Of a DNA stretch of 64,000 nt, positions 5,299 through 42,806 are shown piece after piece. A program made the position numbers and the translations under genes. Where the stretch lies: positions 1 to 64,000 of the forward strand of contig FMBT01000496.1 in the NCBI GenBank assembly GCA_900095095.1, given 5' to 3'. The notes beneath the pieces are model-generated. The model had not been told where the DNA came from, ran no database searches, and saw only the letters and a list, made by a program, of their open reading frames with translations. This DNA is from Fragilariopsis cylindrus CCMP1102 (Eukaryota; Bacillariophyta; Bacillariophyceae; Bacillariales; Bacillariaceae). Position 1 is the first letter of the stretch. Every line of letters starts with the position of its first letter.

Positions 5299-8231
5299 AT
5301 GAAAATACTTTCTCCCAACCTATTTGCAATTATTACCTGTATTGCTAGACTGTCGTTTTCTTCCGCTATTCCTTCGCATAATGTGACAGACGATGATCTT
5401 GACGAATTGTACAAGGAATTAAGTACATTCGCCGTTCCTAAGCATGTTGATTCTGATGCTTGGTTAAGAGAATGTGCGTATTACATTATGAATATAGATT
5501 ACGCTGGAAAAGATCCGTGGGAACCAAAAGTAGATAATGGTTGGGTTTTAACTGATTATTTTTATAAGGATGCTAAACATGGACACTGTACAATGAAGCT
5601 AGAGAGTGCGTTCGGTATGATGAATTGGAACTACACTTTAAAAGCTGTATTCGATGACTACTTTAATGGAATTGAACCTGGATCGAAGGAACATATGGAA
5701 TTGAAATTTTCGGAAATTGAACAGTCTCTTCCTTCTATGTCTCTTCCATCTTATATGATTGAGCCACGGACAGCTAAAGATGCAGTTGAGGCTGTCAACT
5801 TTGCAAAGGTGCATGGTCTCCAGCTTAGTGTAAAGAATACTGGGCACGATTACGCTGGTCAATCGGATGTGAAGGATTCGTTACAACTTAATATGAGAAA
5901 TTTCCCTAAGTATAGTGAAAATGAAATCGTTGTTTGTAAAAAGGGTAGCGAAACAAGCCCGCTAGAAGGACCACCATGTTCACTAGCTCTTGCACGTGGA
6001 AAAACTGCCAGTAAGTCTTCGTTTTGAATGAGTCATATTTATATGTTTCTTGTACTTCTCTTTTTCTTCATTCTATCAACTAACGCTTGTATTGCCTATT
6101 TTTGATTTTACTGTACTAACAGTCGTTCGTGTATCTGGCAGTGAAGGTAACGACAGCATTTATAAGAATGTTCATAACTGGAATCATCAAATGCCAAGAG
6201 AAAAACGATTTCAAATCAGTGGGTATGTTCGTTTTCTTTGTCTTATTTTTTTAAAACTGTTTGGAGTATTGATTTTATTTTCTCATCTATTTTTATTCAA
6301 TTGTTGTATTTTTATGATATACATATATTATATATATATATATATATATAGTGGTGGCGAAGGCGCAATTGGAGCGGGGGGAGGCTATTTGATGGGTGGT
6401 GGTAAGTACATTCATATAAAATATACAAGATCATTTGTTTCTAATTAAGTCACTCACTCGCACAGTTATGCTATTATTTCTAGGACTAGGCATGGGAAGT
6501 AATGATCGCAAGTGGGGTATTGCAATTGATCAAGTCCTAGGTATGTCAAGTTTTATTAAAGTCTCGTCTTCCTTCTTTCCTTCTGTACTTTTTCTATAAT
6601 TCCTAAATAGCTATTGCGTTGACTATATTTCAATAATCTACAATGCTCATTCTCACATTCTAACCTTATTTATCTTTAAATTATCTACAGAACTTGAAAT
6701 GGTACTGGCAAATGGTCAGCATGTTAAGTTTGGACCATCCGAATGGGATGTAGTAGAAGGCTTCTTGTACCCTCAAACCAAACGCGTCAAAGGGCTGTGC
6801 AACAAAAATATACACCACCTTGAAACACAATGGGAATGGGGTGAATGTGAAGAGGATATTGCATTTGACGACTTGTGGTTTGCAGTTCGAGGTGGAGGAG
6901 GTGGAACATGGGGCGTTTTGATCTCCTCATGGCAACAGCTCCATGACGATGATGAATGGTCTTTTTTATCCCCTAATATAGATGCGTCCAATGCGTTGAC
7001 TGACAAGTGTAAGAAGGAAGAAAATTGTGGAACCATTCAAAAAATGGCAAATAAAATCTGGGTCAATTTCGTTATTGATTTTATGAATGGACCAATAAGT
7101 GAGGAAATTGGAAACGAAATGAGTTCTGACTGTGGATACAATGATGCTGGATTTGTTTTTGGTGAAAAAATGCCTTTAGTCTATGGTGACGGTCTTGTCG
7201 AATTTTCGTGTATCGGAAAGGATGCTGCAAACCAAATGATTGCTTCGTGGCGAATATATGTCCGTAAGTCAGAATATTTATTGGATTCTTTTAATGATAC
7301 GGAATTGTTACAAGACATTATTCATATGGCTCCCATTGCTGGAAATTACGGAGATTTGACAAGTAAAGCCTCGTCAATTGGAGAAAGTGTAGGACTTGGA
7401 GCTTTTCTTGCTAATCATACCTTGTCGCTAGAAGATGGAGCTGATACACCAATACAACCATCTTCTTGGATGAAATCTCCACTCGGCCATGCTATTTCAG
7501 TCAAAACAGCTGGAGTTTATTCGCCATATAAATACAATCTCCTTATTCCGACAGCAATGATATTGGAAAAAAGTGATCTCGTTTTAGAGTTATTACGTGT
7601 ATGTGAAGGACATGAATGGGGACGGAATACAGCAATATCTAGTGATGGAATGGATTCGATGCCAAAGTTATTTCGACAATCATTGAAAGGGTGTCAACTC
7701 GGACTTGACCCTAATAGTTCTAATAGGAGTACGTACGGCGAACTAGATAAATACTTTTCAGAAGTACAATCAAAGATTATGGAATATGTCAATGAAGACG
7801 ATATTCAAGCTAGAACCTTTCCTGGATTTCAAGAAAAGAATCACCTACAGGGGAATACTCCATTACCATTAAAAGATGATTGGACAAAAGTATGTCCATA
7901 CAATCTATCAGATGAAGAACGTAAGGAAAAATGTATGAGTGCACAGGAATCTGTCTGGGGTACAGAAAATATGGAAAGGATGGAAAGAATTAAAATGGAG
8001 ATAGATCCCAATAATATGTTTCAAGTATATCATGGAATTGGACAGAGAGATGTATCACCTCGTCAGGAATATAAGTGGTCATTACCACCATTGTCTACTC
8101 CTACTCCTACTACTATTACTAATATCACTACTACTAAATTTATCAGCGGCAGCAGTAGTAGGAGTAATAACAACGATTCCAATCAATCCGGTTCCAAACG
8201 ATCGTTATTACGTGGAAGGCTCAATAACTAA
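5299..8231 (+). CDS. secreted FAD-dependent oxidase, berberine-bridge-enzyme (BBE) type, five exons
   Basis: Exons read as 5299-6010, 6123-6222, 6352-6401, 6484-6540 and 6691-8231, all with GT-AG borders and consistent phase, giving about 819 residues. The N-terminus (MKILSPNLFAIITCIARL) is a signal peptide. The FAD-binding domain (PF01565 type) starts near residue 152 ('MIEPRTAKDAVEAVNFAK') and contains 'NTGHDYAGQ', where His183 aligns with the histidine that carries covalent FAD in BBE enzymes. The short exons 3-4 encode the glycine-rich loop 'GAIGAGGGYLMGGG', and exon 5 begins 'ELEMVLANGQHVKFG' as in the family. Near the end 'DPNNMFQVYHGIG' matches the BBE C-terminal signature. The tail after about residue 760 is Thr/Ser/Asn-rich. 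The substrate cannot be told; family members oxidise alcohols, sugars or alkaloids with oxygen. An ER or secreted location is inferred. Confidence 0.88.
6329..6350 (+). repeat. (TA)n microsatellite in an intron
   Basis: An uninterrupted TA tract abuts the acceptor AG of the second intron of the FAD oxidase gene, serving in place of a pyrimidine tract. Confidence 0.9.
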
Positions 8232-18945: not shown

Positions 18946-20336
18946 ATGGCAACTACAACACCTGTTACTAATACTGCTGACATTGGTAGTAACGACTCTT
19001 CGTCATCCGACGCAATAGTAGCAACAGCTGTTACAATAGACGGTGACGATGATGTTTCATCATTGTTGGTATTACCATCATTTGATTCTTGTATCGTAAC
19101 GGATGCACCGGAACAACAGCAACAACGAAAACGGACATCCAACGACGATGACGACGACGATGATGATCATCAGAATAGACATGCATTTCCATTCGTTCTA
19201 TCACCACCAACTGCTGTTACGAATGGTGTTACAATGATTGATACATCTGACAAATTAACTAACTTTATTCAAGTAAATTCTCATCGTATTGATACAATAT
19301 TAAATGAACAATGTGGTGCCATATTATTTCGTGGTTTTCCATCATTAACAACAAAGGAAAATAATGCCACAGCAGCCTATAATTTCAATACATTTGTAGA
19401 ATCTTTTGACTCCTGTCTACAGTTTCAAGATTTAAGTTATGAAAAAAGTATGTCATTTGCGGTACGTACCAAAATAACGAATCGTATCTGTACTACCAAT
19501 GAAGGTAAATCGGGTGGATTAGTGTTTCATCATGAGCAAGCTCAGACACCATTATGGCCCAGTCATGTCTTTTTTTGTTGTGAATTGCCTGCTGCAAAAA
19601 ATGAGGGTGGTGAAACTGGTATCGTGTCATCCATTACAGTCTATGAAAAACTCCAACAATTATATCCAACATTTATAAAGAAATTAGAAACTATTGGTAT
19701 ACAATATACCATATATTCTGGAGTAACTTCTGATTCCACAAAAGGGTCAGGTCGATCCTGGAAATCATTTTTTCATGTCACAACCAAAAAGAATGTGAAA
19801 TCAAGATGAATGCAGGGGGGTGGACTATGAATGGGGGTTGGACCGAGTGGGACCGTCGTCGATAAGAATTTTTTAAAATGTACCACACCAATATTAGAAG
19901 GTGTGAAAACGATGAAGAATGGTCAAAAATGTTTCTTTAATCAACTTATTGCAACCACAGCAAATGCCTTAGAATTTAGTAAAGTTGGTAACAATACTAA
20001 TCGCAATGATAGTAGTGGTAGTAGTAATAGTAACGACAATGGCATTGACATTGATAATGGATATAATCCATTAATTGATATACCAACACAGGATGGTATC
20101 AATGAATGTGTGAAATTTAGTAATGGTGATCAAATTGATTTAGATATATTATTAACAGCAAAGGAGATATGTGAAGAATATTCAGTCAATATACATGGGA
20201 AAAAGGTGATATATGTCTATTATCAAATTATTTATGTATGCATGCAAGACGGATATGGTCTGGTCCAATTGGTACGCGTAAATTATTAGCATCATTAGTA
20301 CAAGAAAATAATTGTACATCATTCAATCAAAATTAA
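18946..20336 (+). CDS. TauD/TfdA-type Fe(II)/2-oxoglutarate dioxygenase-like protein, frame-broken
   Basis: The first frame (from ATG 18946) has an acidic, Ser/Asp-rich leader (~75 residues), then 'FIQVNSHRIDTILNEQCGAI' and 'LFRGFPSL', typical of the family start. 'GLVFHHEQAQTPLWPSHVFF' supplies the H-x-E/D pair that binds iron. Further on, 'GTVVDKNFLKCTTPILEGVK' and 'CFFNQLIATTANAL' match the middle of the fold, and the last frame ends with 'GDICLLSNYLCMHARR', whose His is the third iron ligand, then 'SGPIGTRKLLASLVQ'. These pieces lie in different phases; shifts fall near 19790, near 19830 and at about 20198, next to runs of A or G, and each is small. Members hydroxylate small molecules such as taurine or clavaminate-type substrates; the substrate here is unknown. 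I think the gene is real and the shifts are mostly consensus errors, but a decayed copy is possible. Confidence 0.75.
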
Positions 20337-22903: not shown

Positions 22904-24556
22904 TTAGACAGTTTCATCTAATTTCAAATCAGCCGTTAAATTACGAACGGATTGTTCTTGTTCCTTGTTGCAACGTTCCAATTGTTGAACTTCTAATTTC
23001 AATGCCATTTGGAAGCATCTTTTTCATCATCGGTACACAAAGAGTGATTTGTTGACGCAATTCAGCAATGTTATTCAATATACGGACGCGACGGTCAGTG
23101 TAATCACCTTCGGCCCAACCCATATCAAAACCCAAACCATCATTGATGCCGGGAGCTAAGACATTGGTTCCAATATCAAGATGAGCTTGTGCACCCATAT
23201 CATCACCATGATCCTTCGCGATACGTTCTTCTGGAGTTCCAATATAAACTTCATCGTGTTGGTAACCCATAATCTTCTTTTGGATCAAGGCGAAGAACCA
23301 AGCAGCGGCACAGATACCGGTTGCTTCCAGGAAGAGTGCGGCTTGTAAGAAGATGTATACGATAGGGTTGCTTAAGAAAGCTATAGGGAACGACGATGCC
23401 ACCAATTGCCATGCGATAGAACCAAGGATGGTGGTAGTAAGAGCACCCATAAAACCAAGATTGAACATAGTTTGGACCCAATCAGAGACACCAAAGATGT
23501 TATCATCAACACCGATTTCAACATTGATGGTGGTAACACGTGCAATCACGAAGAAACACAATGTCACAGTCATTTGACGACCACACATAAAACCTGGAAG
23601 ATTCTTTCCGCCATTCTTGAATAAGCAATGGCATGTCTTGAGTGCTAATGAAGATTCACCACGTTCCGACTTCGGAAGTTTGGCAACGGTGAAGAATGCA
23701 ATTTGCATACCCTCCAGAAGACCAACACAACTCATTAGGACAAAGAACAGGACGAGTCCAACAGCATTTGGTACACCATCCCAGATGGTTGTTTGTCCAC
23801 GGAACAAGGCATCGATGGTAACCGCAAGAGCGAAACCTAAAATGGCAACAGAGAATAAGATACGTCCCCAGTAGAAGGCAAGGACCGCACCGGTCTTGGG
23901 TGGTTCATTGGATTCCACAGGTTTGCCGGCGGCCCAGTATGCCATCATACGGATCAGATAGGAGGTATGCATGACACCAGTCACTTCAATACCGGCAGCC
24001 ACCCAATACGTGAAGGTCATGAAGTGTGTGTTGATATAATCCAGCATACAATGTGAGGCATTGACTTGCGATGTTAATTGACCGATGATCACATTTTGTA
24101 AGACCATCGCAATACCAGATCCAGGAAGATATTGATCACCCATTGTGGTAATCCTAACACAGGAACGGAGGCATCAATTGGTGCACCACATAGACCGATG
24201 GTAAAGTTAATAAAGATGACCATGAATTGACGTCCCATTAAATAACGATCCAGGTTATCACCCTTGTGTCCCCATCCTGCAATCTTGTAGGTGATTGGAT
24301 GTGATTCACGGTATAATTCACGATCGACTGGTGGTAGACCCACCATCGAGCATTGTCCACCTTCCACCATCGACATCCAGATGATGAGTGTCCATAAGAT
24401 AATACCAGCAGCCACGGGATGGAGATCACGTGCAATTTGTGTATTACCGGTTGAGATCAATGCCAAAACGACGATGACAGAGAACGTAACCAGGAATAAA
24501 GAAATCACAATACGGATCCAATCCAAGGGTGTGTTTGTTCCATGAGAGTGACCCAT
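22904..24556 (-). CDS. SIT: silicon (silicic acid) transporter, SIT family
   Basis: Begins MGHSHGTNTPLDWIRIV at 24556. The protein is rich in membrane helices (about 10 expected). It has both internal repeats of the SIT family: 'MSMVEGGQCSMVG' with 'LMGRQFMVIF', and later 'LLEGMQIAFF' with 'MCGRQMTVTLCFF', i.e. the paired EGxQ/GRQ motifs thought to handle silicic acid. 'NASHCMLDYINTHFMTFTYW' carries the CMLD signature of pennate-diatom SITs. The C-terminus reads as a coiled coil ('LKLEVQQLERCNKEQEQ') ending LDETV. SITs import silicic acid, sodium-coupled in marine species, for the silica wall. The reading phase changes once near 24127 (between 'QWVINIFL' and 'GIAMVLQNVIIG') and twice close together near 23000-23020; each fits one missing base. 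Codon use is more regular than in neighbours, as for a highly expressed gene. Without the shifts the length is about 550 residues, the family norm. Confidence 0.95.
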
Positions 24557-26815: not shown

Positions 26816-28101
26816 TCATTCTTCTTCTTTTTCAAAATTCATCATCTCTTTCAACAACATGATCAGAATCAGAATCACTACTACTACTACTACTACTTGT
26901 GTCTTGTCACAAATTGATACAATTGATGTAATTGCCATTGTATCATTCCATGTTGGATTAGTATCAATATTAGATTCAATATAATTATTTCCATCTGATA
27001 TAATAGATCCAGTGATGGTCCATCTCCACCAAGTTCGAATAATTCCCCAAAACTTGGAAATTTTAATACCACATTTTCCATATCATATTTATTATTGTAC
27101 AAATGGTACAAATAGATTTGATCTAACCAATCATTATTACCAATATTAATAAATAATTCTGCTGTGGCATTCCACGTCACACCATTAGGGTAACCTGCTA
27201 TATCATCCTTATAACTAGTGGACATTGATATCGTACCAAAACTATTACTAAGACCAGGTATCTCTCTTGCCATATATGGTGGTTGAGGTTGTATTATCGA
27301 ACAATTATTATTTGATAATAATTGATCTTTCTCCGTAGTAGTGGTAGTTGTTGTTGAGGTATTGTTGTAGTTGTAGTTGTAGTTGTAGTTGTACATGTTA
27401 CTGATAGTAGGGTCACCATTGGTACCAAATTGTATATACTTACCAGGTATAACACGAAAAAAATAATTCTGATTATAATAACCATATTTTGCTAATCTAT
27501 AGATCCGTTCTGCTTGGACTGGTGCACGTCTTCGATCACAATCAGCCACAAAGTCACCATATTGAGTTGGAAATAGAATAGAAAATAAAGATAAAGGTTC
27601 GTTATTATTGCTATTGCTGCTATCACTACTACTAATGCTACTAATCGGTGTTTTATCAAGTTTACATGGATCTGATAATATTGATGGTTCATATGTAGAT
27701 TGTTGACAGTTATTCTTTTTTTCAAAATTACTATCATTATTGTTGTTATTGTTATCGTTTTCAATATTGACATCCTTCTCTACTCTTTTTGTTTTAATTG
27801 TACCATCGACAATCTTTTCTTCTTCTTCTTCTTCTTCTTCTATTTCCTTTTCTTCTTCAACGATAGCATTGACATTGACTATGTCATTGGCATTGGCGTT
27901 GGCATTGACTTCAACATCCTTCTCTCCATAATCTAATGCTGCGACAATATTAGTACATAAACTGGATAGCAATAGTATGGATACTGCAATCAGAGGTAAT
28001 AATGGCAATTTACTTGTACTTGTATTACGTGGTCTTGGTCGTGGTCGTTTGTGGACGATCATGCTCACCATCATCGTTCGTTCGTTATTGTATTTCGGCA
28101 C
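26816..28101 (-). CDS. membrane-anchored cyclophilin-like (peptidyl-prolyl isomerase-like) protein
   Basis: Starts MPKYNNERTMMVSMIVHKRP at 28101. A basic leader (RPRPRPR) precedes one hydrophobic segment at about 34-56 ('LPLLPLIAVSILLLSSLC'), a signal anchor. An acidic Asn/Glu-rich stretch follows (about 60-150). The cyclophilin-like fold begins near 'YGDFVADCDRRRAPVQAERI' with 'YYNQNYFFRVIPGKYIQFGT', then a Tyr-Asn and Thr repeat insertion, then 'MAREIPGLSNSFGTISMSTS', 'TAELFINIGNNDWLDQ' and 'FGELFELGGDGPSLDLLYQ'. The family's FR-x-x-x-G-x-x-xQxG core is recognisable but the catalytic Arg/Phe/Trp set is only partly kept (FRV kept, QFG for QGG), so activity is uncertain. A one-base phase shift near 27005 precedes the natural end ('NDTMAITSIVSICDKTQ'). 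Likely ER lumen or secretory pathway. Divergent from the AAAP gene. Confidence 0.78.
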
Positions 28102-28691: not shown

Positions 28692-31001
28692 ATGTCGTCG
28701 TCGTTATTGTCGTTACCCGGTAACGAAACAACAATTAAAAACACCACCATCAGCACAGTAGGTGATAAGAAGAATGATGCGATGACGACGACGACGACGA
28801 TGACGCCATAATGATGATTCCAAGCGAAACTAATAATAACAAATCTTTGACGAAATACACAGCAACACAACAACAGCAAAACCATCATCGTCATCATCAA
28901 CAACAACAAAAACAACAACAACATCTATTACCGATTGGGAAGCAAGTGTTTCATTGGCAAAGGCTATTATGGGAGCTGGAAGGTATGTATGTACGTTGTA
29001 ATTTTAAGATGAAAAATCGATTCTTGTACTTTGTTTGATGCGACGCGAAGCTGGCTGGTAGGACGATACAAACAGATCAGTTTTGAAATTAAATTAAATT
29101 AATTAACTTTCATTTCATTTTCCTCGCTTTTTCTTTTTGTTGTTGTTGTTGTTTTGTTGTATCTTTCCTTCGGTAATTAAGTTTCGCTTTACCATGGGCG
29201 TTTTCAAAATGGGATATATTGCTGGTCCAATATTTTTAATAATATTTTTAGTACTATCAGTACATTCCATTGGACTACTAGTCGAATGTTCAGATGGATG
29301 AGACACAACAACAACGAAACAACAACAACAAGAACACAGAAAACAAGAACAATAACATATGTTGATATAGCACAATCGACATTTGGTAATAATGGTGCCA
29401 GATTAACATATATAGCAAGTATTTCAGCATCTATTGGTGTATGTGGTAGTTATCTTGTTTTTATTGCAGTTAATTTGGAATCATTATTTTCATTATTGTT
29501 ACCATTGTTATTATTATCATCATCAACAACATCAACAACAACAACAACACAACAACAATATTGAAGTAGTAGAAGGCATTACCTCTGTAGAAGGGAATAA
29601 GGATGAACAACATGAAATGAGTACAAGTACAAGTACAAGTAATAGTAGCAATGATGTGACGTTCCTTGTAATTATAATATGGACAATAGCTATGCCAATT
29701 GCTGTTATGTTATCATCAGTTCGTAATCCAAAACGATTTGCTACTGTATCATTTTGGGGTGATATTTCTGTTATTGCTGGGATGATTGCTGTTTTAATTT
29801 ATGGCACAATAATTGCTACTACAACAATTGCAGCAACTTCTACTGGCGCTGGCACTGGCACTGGCCTGGCACTGGCACTGGGTATGACTATACTGAAGTT
29901 AACACAGATGATAATAACAATTATTACGAGATGATAATGACAATGATGGACGAAATAAATGCGTAGCTATAGGGTCACTTCATGATATGGCTTTAGCCTT
30001 TGGATCGATTGGATATTTATTCCTAGTTCATTTTTTGATTTTACCAATCGAATCGAGTATGTTGGTTATTGAAGTCGAACACGAGCACGACGACGAGAAT
30101 AATAAGGATGTTAATACAACAACAAAAACAACAGCAACAACGAGAAGAATCATCATCGTCGTTTCATGAAGTAGTTCAACGAACATTTACTGTTGTGGAT
30201 TCATTGGTGGATCATTTGGGATTGCTGGTTATTTATTATTTGGAAAAATACTCAACAGATCGTCCTTATGAATGTTGTCAGTGTGACAATGGTAGTGGAA
30301 TCGGTATAATGGCAACCGTTCAGTTTTTACTATGTATCGATCTTATATTCACCTATCCTGTTGTTATGAGACCATCGATTGTTATTTTAGAACAGCAATT
30401 ACTACGTCGCCGTCATCGTCATCGTAGACGACGAAACGACAAAATACTCGTACCGGTACTACACCGTTACCACTAACACTACATTATCTTCGCCGTCGAC
30501 ATCGCCACCGCGGTTGCGACTGTCTGATAATCGTTATCGCTCCAATAAGAGGATAATGTCGATGATGACAATAACAATAGCAATAGTAATATCATCAGCA
30601 ACGACAACGACAACGATTTTCTTGATGATAATGAAGTTGATATCGATAGTGATAATATTGAATGGACGACCCATATAATTATATGCTCAATATTGGGTAT
30701 AATAGCTGCAAGTGCTGGTAGCTTTATTCCAGCTTTTGGCTTATTAAGTGGCCTTGTAGGTGGTGTATCACAAACATTTTTAGCAATTGTTTTACCACCA
30801 CTTATGTGGTCCAAGATACAACAGAAGCAGAAGCAGCGTAGTAATCCTACAAGCACGTTTACTACTTCTAGTATTAGTAGTAATGATGCAGTATGGGCGT
30901 CTTCTTTTTACTATCTTCCGCGGAAAGAAAAGATGTTGGTATTGTGTGGTTTTGGTCTTATTCTATGGACTTTACATAGCACCTGGTTGGAATTGAACTG
31001 A
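28692..31001 (+). CDS. AAAP-family (vacuolar-type) amino-acid transporter, one intron, frame-broken
   Basis: The start is either ATG 28692 or ATG 28811 ('MMIPSETNNNKSLTKYTAT'). The first helix reads 'SITDWEASVSLAKAIMGAGS', interrupted by a GT-AG intron at 28983-29181 and resuming 'FALPWAFSKMGYIAGPIFLI'. This G-x-G-x-x-x-L-P-x-A unwound first helix is the AAAP (PF01490) hallmark. Later helices include 'TYVDIAQSTFGNNGARLTYI' with 'GVCGSYLVFIAVNLE', 'NPKRFATVSFWGDISVIAGM', 'MALAFGSIGYLF' and 'ATVQFLLCIDLIFTYPVVMR', and the end 'IIAASAGSFIPAFGLLSGLV' to 'LILWTLHSTWLELN'. Low-complexity Thr/Asn/Gln loops sit between helices. Phase changes several times (e.g. CAAAATGGG near 29207), each explained by one lost base. 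Expected to move amino acids with protons across the vacuolar or plasma membrane; the substrate is unknown. Confidence 0.82.
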
Positions 31002-35043: not shown

Positions 35044-38000
35044 TTATCTTTTAAGATTCTTCCATTGATTTGGAAAAATTTCATCACGGATTTCAATATG
35101 ATGTCGAAATGCAGTTGATAAATGTTGATCACCTTGATTGGGTGGTATTGTAAAAAATCGTATTGATTCTCTTGGATAATTTTTCACCAATAAATGTTTT
35201 GCAACGTCATGCATCATATGATATTGTTGATGATGATAGTCAGATGGATATATCCGAACCGTATACTTATTATTGTTATTATTACTATTATTGTTTTCAG
35301 CATTTTCTTCCTTGGCTAGAACAGAACATGGCCAGAAACTACCATATCCCCCTTGACCATAGTCGTAATCATCATCATCATCAGCGTCATCCTCGTACTC
35401 ATAATCATCAGCGTCATCCTTGTACTCATCATCATTATAATCATCAGCGTCTTTCTCGTACTCATAGTAATCATCATCATCATCATCATCGTTCTTCTTC
35501 TTTCTATTCATATTAAAAATATTTTTTGCATCAAATGCATATTCGGTATAAATTTCTGCATCAGAAAATGTTTTCCAATAGTGTCGATGATTTGGATTCC
35601 GCGGATGATAAAATCCTAATTCTAAATCAATTGGTAGTAAGTTCTTGTACCAACACATAGCTTGATACCGTCCATTTAGGGAAGTTGCTGGTTTATTATT
35701 CCGTAAATGTTTTGCTCTATTATTACTACCAAACCATAGTGATACTGGTATGTCTTTCTGTTGATTCATTTCGTATTCTGTTATACTAGGAATACTACTA
35801 TCAGTATTTGTAATATCATTACTATCCCAGGTCTTAACGTGTTCCAACCATGCATTTTCCCATTCTTTGCCATAATCAATAAAGATCTACAGTAAGAATA
35901 GAAAATAAAGCATAACGAAACGAGAGGTAGATAATATCACGATGAAAGAATGGAAAGAGAATGAATGAATGAATGAATATAATAGTACAGTATAATGTTT
36001 GAGATAGTAGAAAAGAACAAAAAGCAAACGTATGCACGTACCTCCTCGCCTGGTTTTATATCACGCAATGCAATAATTTCCATTGATAATAATCGATGTG
36101 TACTCTCTTTGTTACTTTCTACAGCAATCTCACTAATTGTCATTTTTAATGTCTTATCAGTTTGTGGATCCCACGAAGATGACCGTGATGGTCCTCCTGA
36201 TTCTGATTCTGATCCTGATCTTTTGGACGACGACGATGACGCCCATCGATACATTGCATTCGGTCCTTCATTTTTGTCTTTACTACTATTATCATTATTA
36301 CCGCCGCATGGGAATGATACCTTATTATTTTCATCCTCACTGTTATCACCGTTACTGCCAGTACCATTAGTACTACTATTAGTGCTACTACTGCAGTGAT
36401 TGATTAATATTGAATTTGTTATCGGACAAAATATCATTGTAGATTCGTGATGACCAAAACAATAATTGATTAATAGTTCATCTTTGTTATTATTATTCAA
36501 TAACGAACGATCCAATAGATGAAGTAATGGTACAGGAACAATGATATAATTTTTTCTAATAAAGCGTTGGGCTATAGCACCACGGCCAATTGTTGTTGTT
36601 GTTGCTGACGTTGAAGTTGTGCTGCTGCTTGATGTTGACGTTGACGATGACGTTGACGATGACGTATCATCATCAACGACGACGTTAACTATTGGTGTTT
36701 TTGATATACCAGGTATGATATGATCTAAACACATCCCATATTTCTTTAATTCTTTTTTGTTTTTGGTGGCAATAATGAATACTCAGTATATATTGCATCC
36801 GCAAAATCTTCTATACTTGGTATTGGTTGATTATTATTATTATTATTATTCTTATACTCATCATCAGAATCATTAAAATCTAATCGTTGACGACGAAGTT
36901 TTATTGCTTTACTAATAACTTTAGATAGACCAGATTCATTTGTTGGTACTAAGGAAAGTATACGAGTCATTACATTGTCAATTTGATCAATTGCTTCTTT
37001 ATCATCTTCTTCTTCTTTATCATTACCATCCACACCAGTATTGCCATCAATATTATCATAATACAAATCATCATCGTAATCTCTATTATATCCATTTACA
37101 TCATTAAATGCTAATAATTCTTTAAATGTTTCAATACTTTTAAGGACGTCTGTTGTTATTTCTCTCATATCCATACTATTATTATCTTTCTCATTGTCAT
37201 TGTCATTGTCATTGTCATTATCATTACTATCAGTTGCATCACTACTTGTAGTATCACCAACTATATCAATAGACTGTTTTTTATATAGGAACCTTTGATT
37301 AAAAATTTACGTATTATAACAGCAGCATTCAAATAATCTTGACGTCTCGGTATTTTATTCCTATATGAATTACTTTCTGTATTTTCTGGATTAAAAAAGT
37401 TTTCACCATAATTTAGTAAAATTTCCTCACCAGCATTCACATTTGAATTTACAATAAATTGTTTCCCTTTATAATATGAAAATGAACCTTTTAATGGATT
37501 ATTATCATTACTACTTGTAGTAGTATTACTATTCTTTGTAGTTGTTGTGTTGTTATTAGATGCTGATGATTTTTTCAAGTACGTATAATCATCATACACT
37601 ATTGATGGTTGTTTAAAATCTAAATTTGATTTATATGGATGAAAATTTGGTAATGCACCAAATGTTATTTGATAATCAAAAATCATCCTATTCCTATTTA
37701 TATTCCTATTCCTATTCCTATTTATATCATTTTTGTCTTCGTCTTCGTCATTGACATTGTCATTGTCGTCATCTTCGTCACTTGATATTATTAAAATCTC
37801 ACGTTTCATTCGATCCGACATACCACCATTTTGTCCCCACCAAACATTATGAAATAATTTGAATGGATTTTGACAATAATTGTTATTTTTGCTTTTGTCT
37901 TTGTCTTTGTTTTTGATTTCACCATCTTCACCTTCACATCCAATATTACTACTACTCCCCAATTAATAAGAACTGGTATATTCGGTCCATCTAATAATGA

Positions 38001-38710
38001 ATCATCATTATCATTATCGTTGTCGTCTCCTCCTGCTCCTCCTCCTCCTCCTCCTTTACTATTACCTAATATAGATTGTCCTTTATTAAATCACGTGATG
38101 TAAATAATCCATATCCACCACCTTTTATAGAGGATGGTGCCATATATAATTTACAGTCATTCTTTGGACTACGACGACGACCATGACGTTTATAGTGACG
38201 TTGCTTGTTACTACTATCATCATCATCATCATTGTCTTCTTCTTCTTCTTTTTCTTCTTTCTTCGTCAATTTTTCAGCGTCATTCGTCGTCAAGGAGTCT
38301 GATTCTGAGTCTGAGTGTGAGTCGTCTCCACATGCAACATTATTATTGCCATTTTCATCTTTATCAAATATGTTGTTTTTACAGGTTTGCGTTGTCTGAG
38401 TAGCTGTCAACTCGTCGTTATTGTTGTTGTCAGAAGAAGAAGAATAGTAAGACGAATCGACATTATTAGTAGCAGTTTTGGTTTTAATTTCAGTTTCAGT
38501 TCCAATTTCAATTTCGGTTTCAGTTTCAGCTTCGGCATTAATGATATCAGCAGCGTTACAATACGAAATAGGGTGGTATGACGCTGGGATAAGAGTCGTT
38601 ATTGTTATAAGTAATGTAAGAAAATAAAGAAGCGTCATCGTCATCGTCGTCATCGTCATCCTTGTCGTTGTTCTCATACGCATACTACCACTACCACTAC
38701 CACTAAACAT
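35044..38710 (-). CDS. two-half SET-domain protein, one intron, frame-broken
   Basis: Starts at 38710 with a hydrophobic signal-like stretch ('LLYFLTLLITITTLIPASY'). Then an acidic low-complexity part, then 'LYMAPSSIKGGGYGLFTSRD', the SET N-terminal motif. The matching C-terminal motif is 'GKQFIVNSNVNAGEEILLNY' followed by GENFF. A second unit follows: 'MCLDHIIPG', 'IGRGAIAQRFIRKNYIIVPV', 'INYCFGHHESTMIFCPITNS' with ILINHC, and 'LSMEIIALRDIKPGEE' spliced (intron 36041-35887, GT-AG) to 'IFIDYGKEWENAWLEHVKTW'. Both halves thus have SET-like N-GxG and GEE...YG elements. The tail 'PVSLWFGSNNRAKHLRN' and an Asp/Tyr repeat end the protein. Phases change near 38075, 37965, 37275 and 36745, each by one base, mostly in A or G runs. 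Probably a protein-lysine methyltransferase; the signal-like start hints at an organellar or secretory location. Confidence 0.75.
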
Positions 38711-39293: not shown

Positions 39294-42200
39294 ATGATGA
39301 GTAGTATGATGATGGAGGGTGTAAAATTTGCAGAAGTTGTTGTTGCTGATGATGATGATGTTGTTCCAATGATGACAGGCGAAGAAGAAGAAGCACAAGA
39401 AATACAAGCACAAGAAGCAGAACAAGAATCTGCTGCAGGTAAAGTTAATACGCCGACGAAAGCAGGACAACAAATATTATCAAAATCATGGACTATTGGT
39501 TCGGCACATGTACCAACATTTACTGGTGGTAAAGTAACACATTCTTATTCGAACATTGTTGAGGAAAGCAATGATGACGAGGACGAGGACGATGATAAAA
39601 CAACAGCTTTAAATCCATTTCTATTATTACCAGTACATGGTGATCTTGCTATTGTGGATGCAAGGAAGGGTATTAAATTAGGTACAGTCCGGGGTGGTAG
39701 TGGATTAGATGCCAGTGGTGAAAATGGTACGGGCGAAGATTTTGATAATAATGATGATGATGAAGAGGAAGGAGTGGATCAAGAAAGTATTACATCCTAT
39801 GCCTTAGATCATAAAAATCAATGTATTGTGACATGCAGTCGAAATAATATGTTAAAACAATATTCTGTGATTCGATCCTCCACAAAGAAAGAGGACGAGG
39901 AGAATGATGATAATGATGATGAGGAAAAAGAAACATCAGTAACAGTATCCACAACAACGAAATTAGTACAAACATGGGGACGATCGGGACATCGATTACC
40001 TGTCACAATCATGGCCTATCATGATTCGGATATCTTTTTAGCCACAGGATCTGTGGATGGTACCGTACGTATTTGGGATGTCCGTGGACGATACGTCACA
40101 CATGTCTTTCGACCATTAGCTGCTACTAATAATAATAAAGGAAGTGGTAGTGGTCGAGTTGGTATCACATCCATTAAATGGAAACCAGGTACCTCTCAAT
40201 TAATTATTGCTATTGGACGTGAGGATGGTAGTATATCGATACATAATTTACGTGATGGTAGTCCGGATGAAAAAACATTAAATAATAGTAGTATCATATT
40301 ATTAAATGATCATTTATCTGGTGTCACTTGTATGGATTGGTGGTCCTCATCATCATCATCGACGACGACGGGGAATAATGATAATAATGATGGTAGCAGC
40401 GAATTCTTTATTACGACCGGTAGAGATTCCATCTTAAATTTATGGAGAATTGTTCCTGTTGAGAATGAAGATGGAAACGATAATAAAGGAAAAAAGAAGA
40501 AAAATAAACGTAAACAAAAGAAAGATACTACTACTACGCCACCACAACAACCACGAGTTATGTATCGAAGAATACAAACTATTCCTGTTTATGAACAAAT
40601 TGAAGGTATGATTGTTTTATCATCATCTTCTACTTCTCAAAAAAATGATAATAGTAGTGAAAATAATAATAATGAAATACGTATCGTAACAGCAGGTAGT
40701 AAAGGTTTACTTCGAAAATGGAAGGCAGAAGTTATTATAGGTCAGACACCAGAATTAGTACAAACATCGGAACAACCAATATCAGAATCATTTGGTGATA
40801 ATCGTGGTGGATATATGGGTTTATTATTACAACAACAACAGTCACAACAATCTTTGATTGCAGTTGATGCAGAACATAATTTATCATTTGTTAATTATTC
40901 AACCCTAACATTAAATCGTACAATTGTTGGACATAATGATGAAGTATTAGATTTAAAAATTATTCCATCAATGCAATCATCAAATTCAACATCAACATCA
41001 ATTGTTGTTGCAACAAATAGTCCACAAGTTCGTGTATTTGATTTAAATAATTTTTCATGTTCAGTACTGGATGGACATACATCAACTGTACTTTGTGTTG
41101 ATGCAAGTCCATGTGGACGATACGTTGCAAGTTGTGGTAAAGATAAAACATTACGTCTATGGATGAATAATAATACTAATAATAATACAAATAATAATCA
41201 TACTCCTAGTTATAAATGTGTTGGTATTGCAACTGGTCATACAGAACCAATTGGTGCATGTGGATTATCACAAAAAACTGGCCGGTATGAGGTCGGTGGT
41301 AAAGCTGCAAGGAATGGTGGTGGTGCATTTTGTATAACAGCTAGTGTTGATAAAACATTAAAACGATGGAACTTATTAGGTCCAGATGATTGGAACGAAA
41401 ACGACGAAGATGGTGGTAATAGTGAACCAGTTGAATTAGAAGCAGTTATGAGTATTCGTGGTCATGATAAAGATATTAATATAATATCAATTGCACCAAA
41501 TGATTCTATTGTTGCATCCGGTTCACAAGATAAAACTGTTAAGTTATGGAACTGCACAGATCTATCATTAAAGGCAACACTGAAGGGTCATAGAAGAGGT
41601 GTTTGGGATTGTCAATTTTCACCAATTGATCGTGTTGTTGCAACAAGTTCTGGTGATAAAACAATCAAAATTTGGTCATTAGGTGATTATTCTTGTGTCC
41701 GTACCTTCCAAGGTCATTTGTCTAGTGTATTACGAGTACGATTCTTGTCGACTGGGTTACAATTGGTATCATCCGGTGCAGATGGGTTAGTCAAACTTTG
41801 GACAATCCGTACAAATGAATGTGAATCGACATTAGATGGACATTCTAATAAAGTATGGGCATTAGATTTGGCACCAAGCAGCAACGATAACACCAATGGT
41901 AATCGTGGAGCAGGAGACATTGTTGTTAGTGGTGCTGCCGATTCTAAGATTCTTGTATGGGAAGATACGACAGCTCAATTGGAAGATGAAGAACGTGCAG
42001 AAGAAGCTGAACGGATCTTATTAGATCAAAAAATGGTAAATCATTTACGTCATAAGGAATATGACAAGGCATTAGATATTGCATTACAGGTAGACAAACC
42101 AAGACAAGCATTGAAGGTTTTGAATGCATTATTAGAAAATGAAATTACTGCGTCGTCCAAAAAATCAATGAAAAATAAGCAACAGCATCCCGCCGTCGTT

Positions 42201-42806
42201 TCTGTACTTCAAAAGCACTGTTCGACTTGGGATCTTGACCGTATCGCACAGGTATTAAAGTACTGTCGAGAATGGAATACCCGTGCACGTAATTCTTCAT
42301 TGGCAATGTGGGTACTCCAAGCTATCGTAACAACAATATCCGTTGATCGATTAACATCAAAGGATGCAACTGAAACCAAACACGGGAGTATACCTGAAAT
42401 ATTAGCAGGGATCACCCCGTACGCTGAACGGCATTTTGAACGGTTTGATCGATTACATACCAATACGTATCTACTTGATTATCTACTAGTTAATATGTCA
42501 TCATTGGATCCGATACTGACAACAACAACTAATAATAAGGACGATGACAAACACGATAATGAGACCGAATTTGCTTTGTGGGAGTCAAAGAGCAAATTAG
42601 TATTACCACCAAAATTCATCGATGGACGTATCCAAATGGGAGGTCAGACCGTAGTGGGAAGTAGAGGTACAGCTAATAATGTCAACAACAGCAGCGACGA
42701 TGATGATGATGAAGACAACGATAGCGACGACGATAGTGACGATGATGTTATGACCGTAGGTGACAGTAGCTCATCGGAATCTGAAGACGACGAGAACAAT
42801 GAGTGA
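39294..42806 (+). CDS. UTP13: U3 snoRNP / SSU processome WD40 protein UTP13 (TBL3)
   Basis: An uninterrupted 1170-residue frame. Two seven-blade WD40 propellers can be followed: early blades 'VDGTVRIWDVRGRYVTHVF' and 'GREDGSISIHNLRDG', later ones 'DGHTSTVLCVDASPCGRYVA' with 'CGKDKTLRLW', 'SIAPNDSIVASGSQDKTVKL', 'GHRRGVWDCQFSPIDRVVA' with 'SGDKTIKIW', and 'GADGLVKLWTIRTNECESTL'. After the last blade comes the Utp13 C-terminal domain (about 900-1060): 'QKMVNHLRHKEYDKALDIAL' with 'VDKPRQALKVLNALLE' and 'LVNMSSLDPIL'. The gap between WD units and the family's order fit UTP13, part of the UTP-B complex that acts in the nucleolus in 18S rRNA maturation. Acidic insertions (e.g. after 'MSSMMMEG', and the Asp/Ser C-tail) are species low complexity. 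It is one of the few long genes here with no phase break. Confidence 0.9.
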   Translation: MMSSMMMEGVKFAEVVVADDDDVVPMMTGEEEEAQEIQAQEAEQESAAGKVNTPTKAGQQILSKSWTIGSAHVPTFTGGKVTHSYSNIVEESNDDEDEDDDKTTALNPFLLLPVHGDLAIVDARKGIKLGTVRGGSGLDASGENGTGEDFDNNDDDEEEGVDQESITSYALDHKNQCIVTCSRNNMLKQYSVIRSSTKKEDEENDDNDDEEKETSVTVSTTTKLVQTWGRSGHRLPVTIMAYHDSDIFLATGSVDGTVRIWDVRGRYVTHVFRPLAATNNNKGSGSGRVGITSIKWKPGTSQLIIAIGREDGSISIHNLRDGSPDEKTLNNSSIILLNDHLSGVTCMDWWSSSSSSTTTGNNDNNDGSSEFFITTGRDSILNLWRIVPVENEDGNDNKGKKKKNKRKQKKDTTTTPPQQPRVMYRRIQTIPVYEQIEGMIVLSSSSTSQKNDNSSENNNNEIRIVTAGSKGLLRKWKAEVIIGQTPELVQTSEQPISESFGDNRGGYMGLLLQQQQSQQSLIAVDAEHNLSFVNYSTLTLNRTIVGHNDEVLDLKIIPSMQSSNSTSTSIVVATNSPQVRVFDLNNFSCSVLDGHTSTVLCVDASPCGRYVASCGKDKTLRLWMNNNTNNNTNNNHTPSYKCVGIATGHTEPIGACGLSQKTGRYEVGGKAARNGGGAFCITASVDKTLKRWNLLGPDDWNENDEDGGNSEPVELEAVMSIRGHDKDINIISIAPNDSIVASGSQDKTVKLWNCTDLSLKATLKGHRRGVWDCQFSPIDRVVATSSGDKTIKIWSLGDYSCVRTFQGHLSSVLRVRFLSTGLQLVSSGADGLVKLWTIRTNECESTLDGHSNKVWALDLAPSSNDNTNGNRGAGDIVVSGAADSKILVWEDTTAQLEDEERAEEAERILLDQKMVNHLRHKEYDKALDIALQVDKPRQALKVLNALLENEITASSKKSMKNKQQHPAVVSVLQKHCSTWDLDRIAQVLKYCREWNTRARNSSLAMWVLQAIVTTISVDRLTSKDATETKHGSIPEILAGITPYAERHFERFDRLHTNTYLLDYLLVNMSSLDPILTTTTNNKDDDKHDNETEFALWESKSKLVLPPKFIDGRIQMGGQTVVGSRGTANNVNNSSDDDDDEDNDSDDDSDDDVMTVGDSSSSESEDDENNE

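Follow-up and report, generated by a model that had tools for sequence, protein, structure and literature searches.

A full-length silicon transporter gene with a broken reading frame, and similar frame breaks in unrelated neighbouring genes, in a 64 kb genomic window

Results

The silicon transporter gene

The window, i.e., the whole stretch of 64,000 nucleotides that was analysed, contains on its minus strand (24556-22904, with a TAA stop at 22904-22906) a full-length gene for a silicon transporter (SIT) of Pfam family PF03842 (Silic_transp). In the best reading its frame moves three times, each time by the same step, as if a single base were missing, and the gene is accordingly read in four pieces:

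24125-24556, minus strand: SIT piece A (residues 1-144), containing EGGQ and the first GRQ, in a frame that continues to a stop at 24089
24123-24124, minus strand: SIT break 1, one base short, within a hydrophobic stretch (residues 140-158)
23037-24122, minus strand: SIT piece B (residues 146-507), containing CMLD, EGMQ and the second GRQ
23035-23036, minus strand: SIT break 2, short of one base in the best, though uncertain, reading
23011-23034, minus strand: SIT piece C, TDDEKDAS
23009-23010, minus strand: SIT break 3, short of one base in the best, though uncertain, reading
22904-23008, minus strand: SIT piece D, the tail, ending in LDETV and the TAA stop

In a Pfam search, the first two pieces gave adjoining matches to the Silic_transp profile in two different frames, namely to profile positions 3-141 (E 4.7e-63, 213.7 bits) and 140-475 (E 8.3e-161, 536.2 bits). 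The read-through of 551 residues, in which the pieces are joined with X at the breaks, matches the profile in a single stretch (3-506 of 513) with 771.4 bits, so that both pieces and the read-through score above the curated cut-off of 26.8 bits. Along the read-through, the motifs follow each other in the order EGGQ (65), GRQ (108), CMLD (170), EGMQ (282) and GRQ (326); the window SIT hence carries both the two EGXQ/GRQ pairs by which SITs are defined in the part of the literature source consulted (PMC5100055) and CMLD, which a further source, likewise consulted in part, gives as a SIT motif (PMC6114903). Simple hydropathy yields 11 partly overlapping peaks for the window SIT and 11-12 for its relatives, the family standard being ten transmembrane segments. 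With 794.2 bits the window SIT stays below the curated cut-off of the NCBIfam subfamily TIGR00811 (1047.6 bits), as do two intact relatives introduced below (L001, 935 bits; L002, 574 bits). It is a member of the SIT family (PF03842), unassigned to subfamily TIGR00811, and, going by what is known of the family, its product would most likely be functional and transport silicic acid as other SITs do. The coordinates, motifs and LDETV end given in the preliminary description, and its identification of a silicon transporter, are all borne out; its attribution of the gene to a diatom is likely.

The SIT pieces as read contain no internal stop codons, and the three relatives matched no second SIT within the window. 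Searches with piece B returned no relatives in the PDB at E 10 and none in viral contigs, and the window contains neither a tRNA nor an Rfam match at gathering threshold. The third-position GC content of the SIT is 0.43-0.45, as compared with 0.22 for the Utp13 gene of the same window, perhaps because the SIT is highly expressed and its codon use biased accordingly.

Relatives in prokaryote genomes

A scan of a prokaryote genome collection returned 10 candidate stretches, three of which encode SIT relatives (L001, L002 and L003). The first (L001, 1-3447) lies on a 3.4 kb contig binned into a Clostridia metagenome-assembled genome (MAG); its SIT is eukaryote-like and has a C-terminal tail, and the contig is probably a eukaryote contaminant of that bin. 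L002 (4572-6089) and L003 (2526-4046) encode full-length SITs of 505 and 506 residues with two EGXQ/GRQ pairs and CMLD, share about 52% identity with the window SIT, and come from two Wenzhouxiangellaceae bacteria. One of these is Wenzhouxiangella sp. XN79A, in which the SIT gene (GC 0.59, surroundings 0.69) is located on a 65.9 kb contig amid bacterial-type genes, and the other is a Wenzhouxiangellaceae MAG. Among 369 genomes of the class of XN79A, drawn from a larger group, XN79A itself was the only one with a SIT match. Transfer between a eukaryote and a bacterium is possible for the Wenzhouxiangellaceae SITs. The sections consulted of Marron et al. (2016) describe bacterial SIT-Ls with five transmembrane domains (TMDs) and no obvious eukaryotic source (PMC5100055). 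We found no published report of full-length SITs in Wenzhouxiangellaceae, including in the portion consulted of a 2025 Synechococcus paper (PMC12506029), which does not prove that none exists. Structure prediction for the L002 SIT gave no usable model (mean pLDDT 37.8).

Where L001, L002 and L003 all share one residue (232 alignment columns), the window SIT keeps it in 189, with an X in one further column, while in the mirrored comparison L001 keeps 189 of 208. The window SIT is thus more divergent than L001, perhaps by lineage or by relaxed constraint, between which four sequences do not discriminate, and the comparison is not decisive.

Position of the frame breaks

With tblastn, all three relatives align to the window SIT in two frames that meet at break 1, at 24122. 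The residues flanking the break are consecutive in L001 (137|138) and L002 (143|144), and two residues lie between them in L003 (143|146). Because the alignments meet with no spare bases, break 1 can, as judged from the aligned sequences, be regarded as certain at 24123-24124, and an intron is excluded there.

Breaks 2 and 3 are located in the variable tail, which is absent from L002 and L003. Scored against Pfam, the tail yields 29.6 bits if two one-base-short steps are assumed, 25.4 bits with a single surplus base at the run of five A near 23020, 23.4 bits for another single step and 20.8 bits for no step. Compared with the tail of L001, the same four readings score 89, 72, 65 and 45. Two one-base-short steps are thus the best reading, and a tail with one extra base near 23020, i.e., a gene with two breaks in total rather than three, is a weaker but, as the score margin is modest, plausible alternative. 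All three breaks of the preliminary description could be located, with break 1 shifted from 24127 to 24123-24124; of the two breaks it placed near 23000-23020, one (23009-23010) falls inside that interval and the other (23035-23036) about 15 bases outside, and the tail is less sure than break 1.

Frame breaks in neighbouring genes

Frame breaks also occur in several further genes, and an unbroken one served for comparison:

18946-20330, plus strand: TauD-type dioxygenase, four breaks near 19790, 19820, 19838-19848 and 20187
26900-28101, minus strand: cyclophilin, break near 26996 (identity from Pfam, break by eye)
29250-30300, plus strand: amino-acid transporter (Pfam Aa_trans), five frame changes by eye, two of them in the other direction
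35937-38710, minus strand: SET-like gene, named by eye and unmatched in Pfam, broken at four places near 38081, 37956, 37274 and 36752
39294-42806, plus strand: Utp13 gene, 1170 codons, unbroken (comparison gene)

The product of the TauD-type gene matches PDB entries 1y0z and 9yut and is related to AT3G21360. Bacterial relatives were found in 6 of the 369 genomes at E 1e-8, and the alignments of all six follow frame 3 across two in-frame stops at about 19800-19830 and restart in frame 2 at 20190-20196, with a conserved end. Judged by eye, four one-base-short steps account for this frame pattern, and three of the four fall at runs (A5, G6 and G5). As these alignments show, the TauD-type gene is broken within conserved sequence. 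Plasmid relatives (4 records, 26-27% identity) were left out of the comparison, and matches of a wrong-frame stretch of this gene to viral envelope chains in the PDB were discarded as chance matches.

One of the one-base-short steps of the amino-acid transporter gene falls within a six-base repeat near 29865 that is regular apart from this step. A leucine-rich repeat (LRR) gene and a TRM13-like gene show one one-base-short step each, placed by eye and without relatives like those of the cyclophilin and SET-like genes, and an F-box/LRR-like gene, named by eye with all Pfam matches below cut-off, also has frame changes. The Utp13 gene is free of breaks over 3.5 kb, though it contains 13 runs of five or more. 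Since the five intact comparison genes were chosen as long open frames, they give no fair break rate. For a glyoxalase-like gene at 57.97 kb no relatives were found in plasmids or in the 369 genomes, and it was left out. An FAD-linked oxidase of the berberine-bridge type (5299-8231) is present in two parts, 6027 and 6699, with either introns or breaks between them.

Number and direction of the frame breaks

By eye, and not blind, we located 21 breaks in eight genes of the window, 18 of which are one base short and three go in the other direction (p 0.0015 against an even split); if the SIT tail carries one extra base instead, the count becomes 16 of 20 (p 0.012). A first count, likewise not blind, had given 14 of 14 breaks one base short, comprising those of the SIT and TauD-type genes and of the cyclophilin (1), SET-like (4), LRR (1) and TRM13-like (1) genes. 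Inspection of places flagged by a codon model then added seven, four one base short and three of the other sign (in the amino-acid transporter and F-box/LRR-like genes), which reduced the claim of a single direction to 18 of 21. At 29917 the model calls the other direction, whereas by eye two one-base-short steps are seen. Five flagged places (16618, 49652, 56909, 59948 and 60231; four one base short, one other) were excluded from the count, as no clear protein continues there.

The codon model itself, whose training set consisted of window genes with the SIT pieces among them and which was applied with segments of at least 100 bases and four penalties, gave 14 one-base-short against 5 other places, 10 against 4 (p 0.18), 7 against 0 and, at the stiffest penalty, 0 against 0. 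The SIT break sites touch runs of 2-3 bases at most, while long homopolymers are found at three of the four TauD sites. The window has a single C run of 17 bases and a single G run of 13, whereas A runs reach at most 10 and T runs at most 9 bases.

Discussion

The SIT gene of the window is real and ordinary, and its breaks are most likely technical. We consider it highly probable that at three sites of a complete and ordinary SIT gene a single base is missing from the consensus, having been dropped when incompletely polished long reads were sequenced or assembled. Single bases dropped at either stage would break the frame of the SIT and, likewise, of several other genes of the window, and the predominance of one-base-short breaks fits a long-read consensus error dominated by deletions. 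What the analysis shows is the identity of the gene, its breaks and like breaks in its neighbours; that the missing bases are present in the organism and that long reads were the sequencing method is what we infer here. What favours consensus error is that breaks like those of the SIT also occur in unrelated genes nearby. This evidence, which the preliminary description did not use, supports its preference for consensus errors over loss; its own argument, that the gene is too important to be lost, is weak, considering that SIT copies are multiple and repeatedly lost according to the part consulted of a published account (PMC10700740).

Several points speak against consensus error: the short runs at the SIT sites, the divergence of the SIT, the unbroken Utp13 gene, the non-blind count and the penalty-dependent outcome of the codon model. 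In particular, a strict homopolymer-error model does not describe the SIT sites with their runs of only 2-3 bases. As precedents for consensus error, publications on bacterial or small genomes report that errors in homopolymer length make up most of what remains in long-read-only assemblies (PMC8812927) and that such errors break genes (PMC12007338).

The best-surviving alternative, though in our view an unlikely one, is a real and recent loss of one SIT copy, with other copies sustaining silicon uptake. Should break 1 be genuine, translation would end after 155 residues, leaving a product that lacks CMLD and the second motif pair. Species typically have 3-5 SIT copies, and copies have repeatedly been lost in diatoms, as stated in the portion consulted of PMC10700740; together with the position of the SIT breaks away from long runs and the greater divergence of the window SIT at conserved columns, this agrees with loss of a copy, against which stand the like breaks in unrelated genes of the window and the absence of any nonsense change within the SIT pieces as read. 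Given such copy numbers and recurrent losses, even a real copy loss would not mean silica independence. A silica-poor or silica-independent lineage, which the preliminary description had raised as the exciting alternative, finds no support: since breaks of this kind also affect other genes of the window, loss of silicon use is unneeded as an explanation, and we reject it. Fission into a five-TMD half transporter (SIT-L) was likewise rejected, because the hydrophobic stretch 140-158 runs past the end of piece A, which is thus not a clean half transporter.

It is extremely improbable that the bases are truly absent and that frequent -1 ribosomal frameshifting in this nuclear genome yields the whole SIT and the TauD-type enzyme. 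In Euplotes, +1 frameshifting occurs, of which -1 reading would be the mirror; that most steps in several genes share one direction, and that three TauD sites lie at the runs A5, G6 and G5, would fit such a mechanism. However, by eye no slippery sequence is common to the SIT and the other sites, three places go the opposite way, and Utp13 needs no frameshifting despite its many runs. Short introns or exon joins can scarcely be entertained as the nature of the frame changes either. Intron-like gaps are seen by eye elsewhere in the window, in genes near 35.9 kb and 28.98 kb, but the residues of the relatives that flank break 1 are consecutive or almost consecutive, and the two pieces adjoin without spare bases.

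With consensus error as the preferred reading, claims of gene loss drawn from this assembly, for silicon transport or otherwise, are unsafe before the bases are checked, because 21 breaks were seen by eye in a single 64 kb window.

Comparison with known systems

The window SIT resembles the SIT family (PF03842) in its whole-length profile match, two EGXQ/GRQ pairs and CMLD, and differs in that its frame is broken in the consensus. As is known for long-read consensus errors, the one-base breaks are scattered, mostly one base short, and found in otherwise well-kept genes; unlike these, the SIT sites lie away from long homopolymers. A further parallel is the SIT of Florenciella, for which the part consulted of the source notes a suspected frameshift assembly error (PMC5100055); in both cases a technical frame break in a SIT sequence is suspected. 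The Florenciella case differs, however, in that it concerns another alga, a single break after the second GRQ, and a sequence presumably of the transcriptome era.
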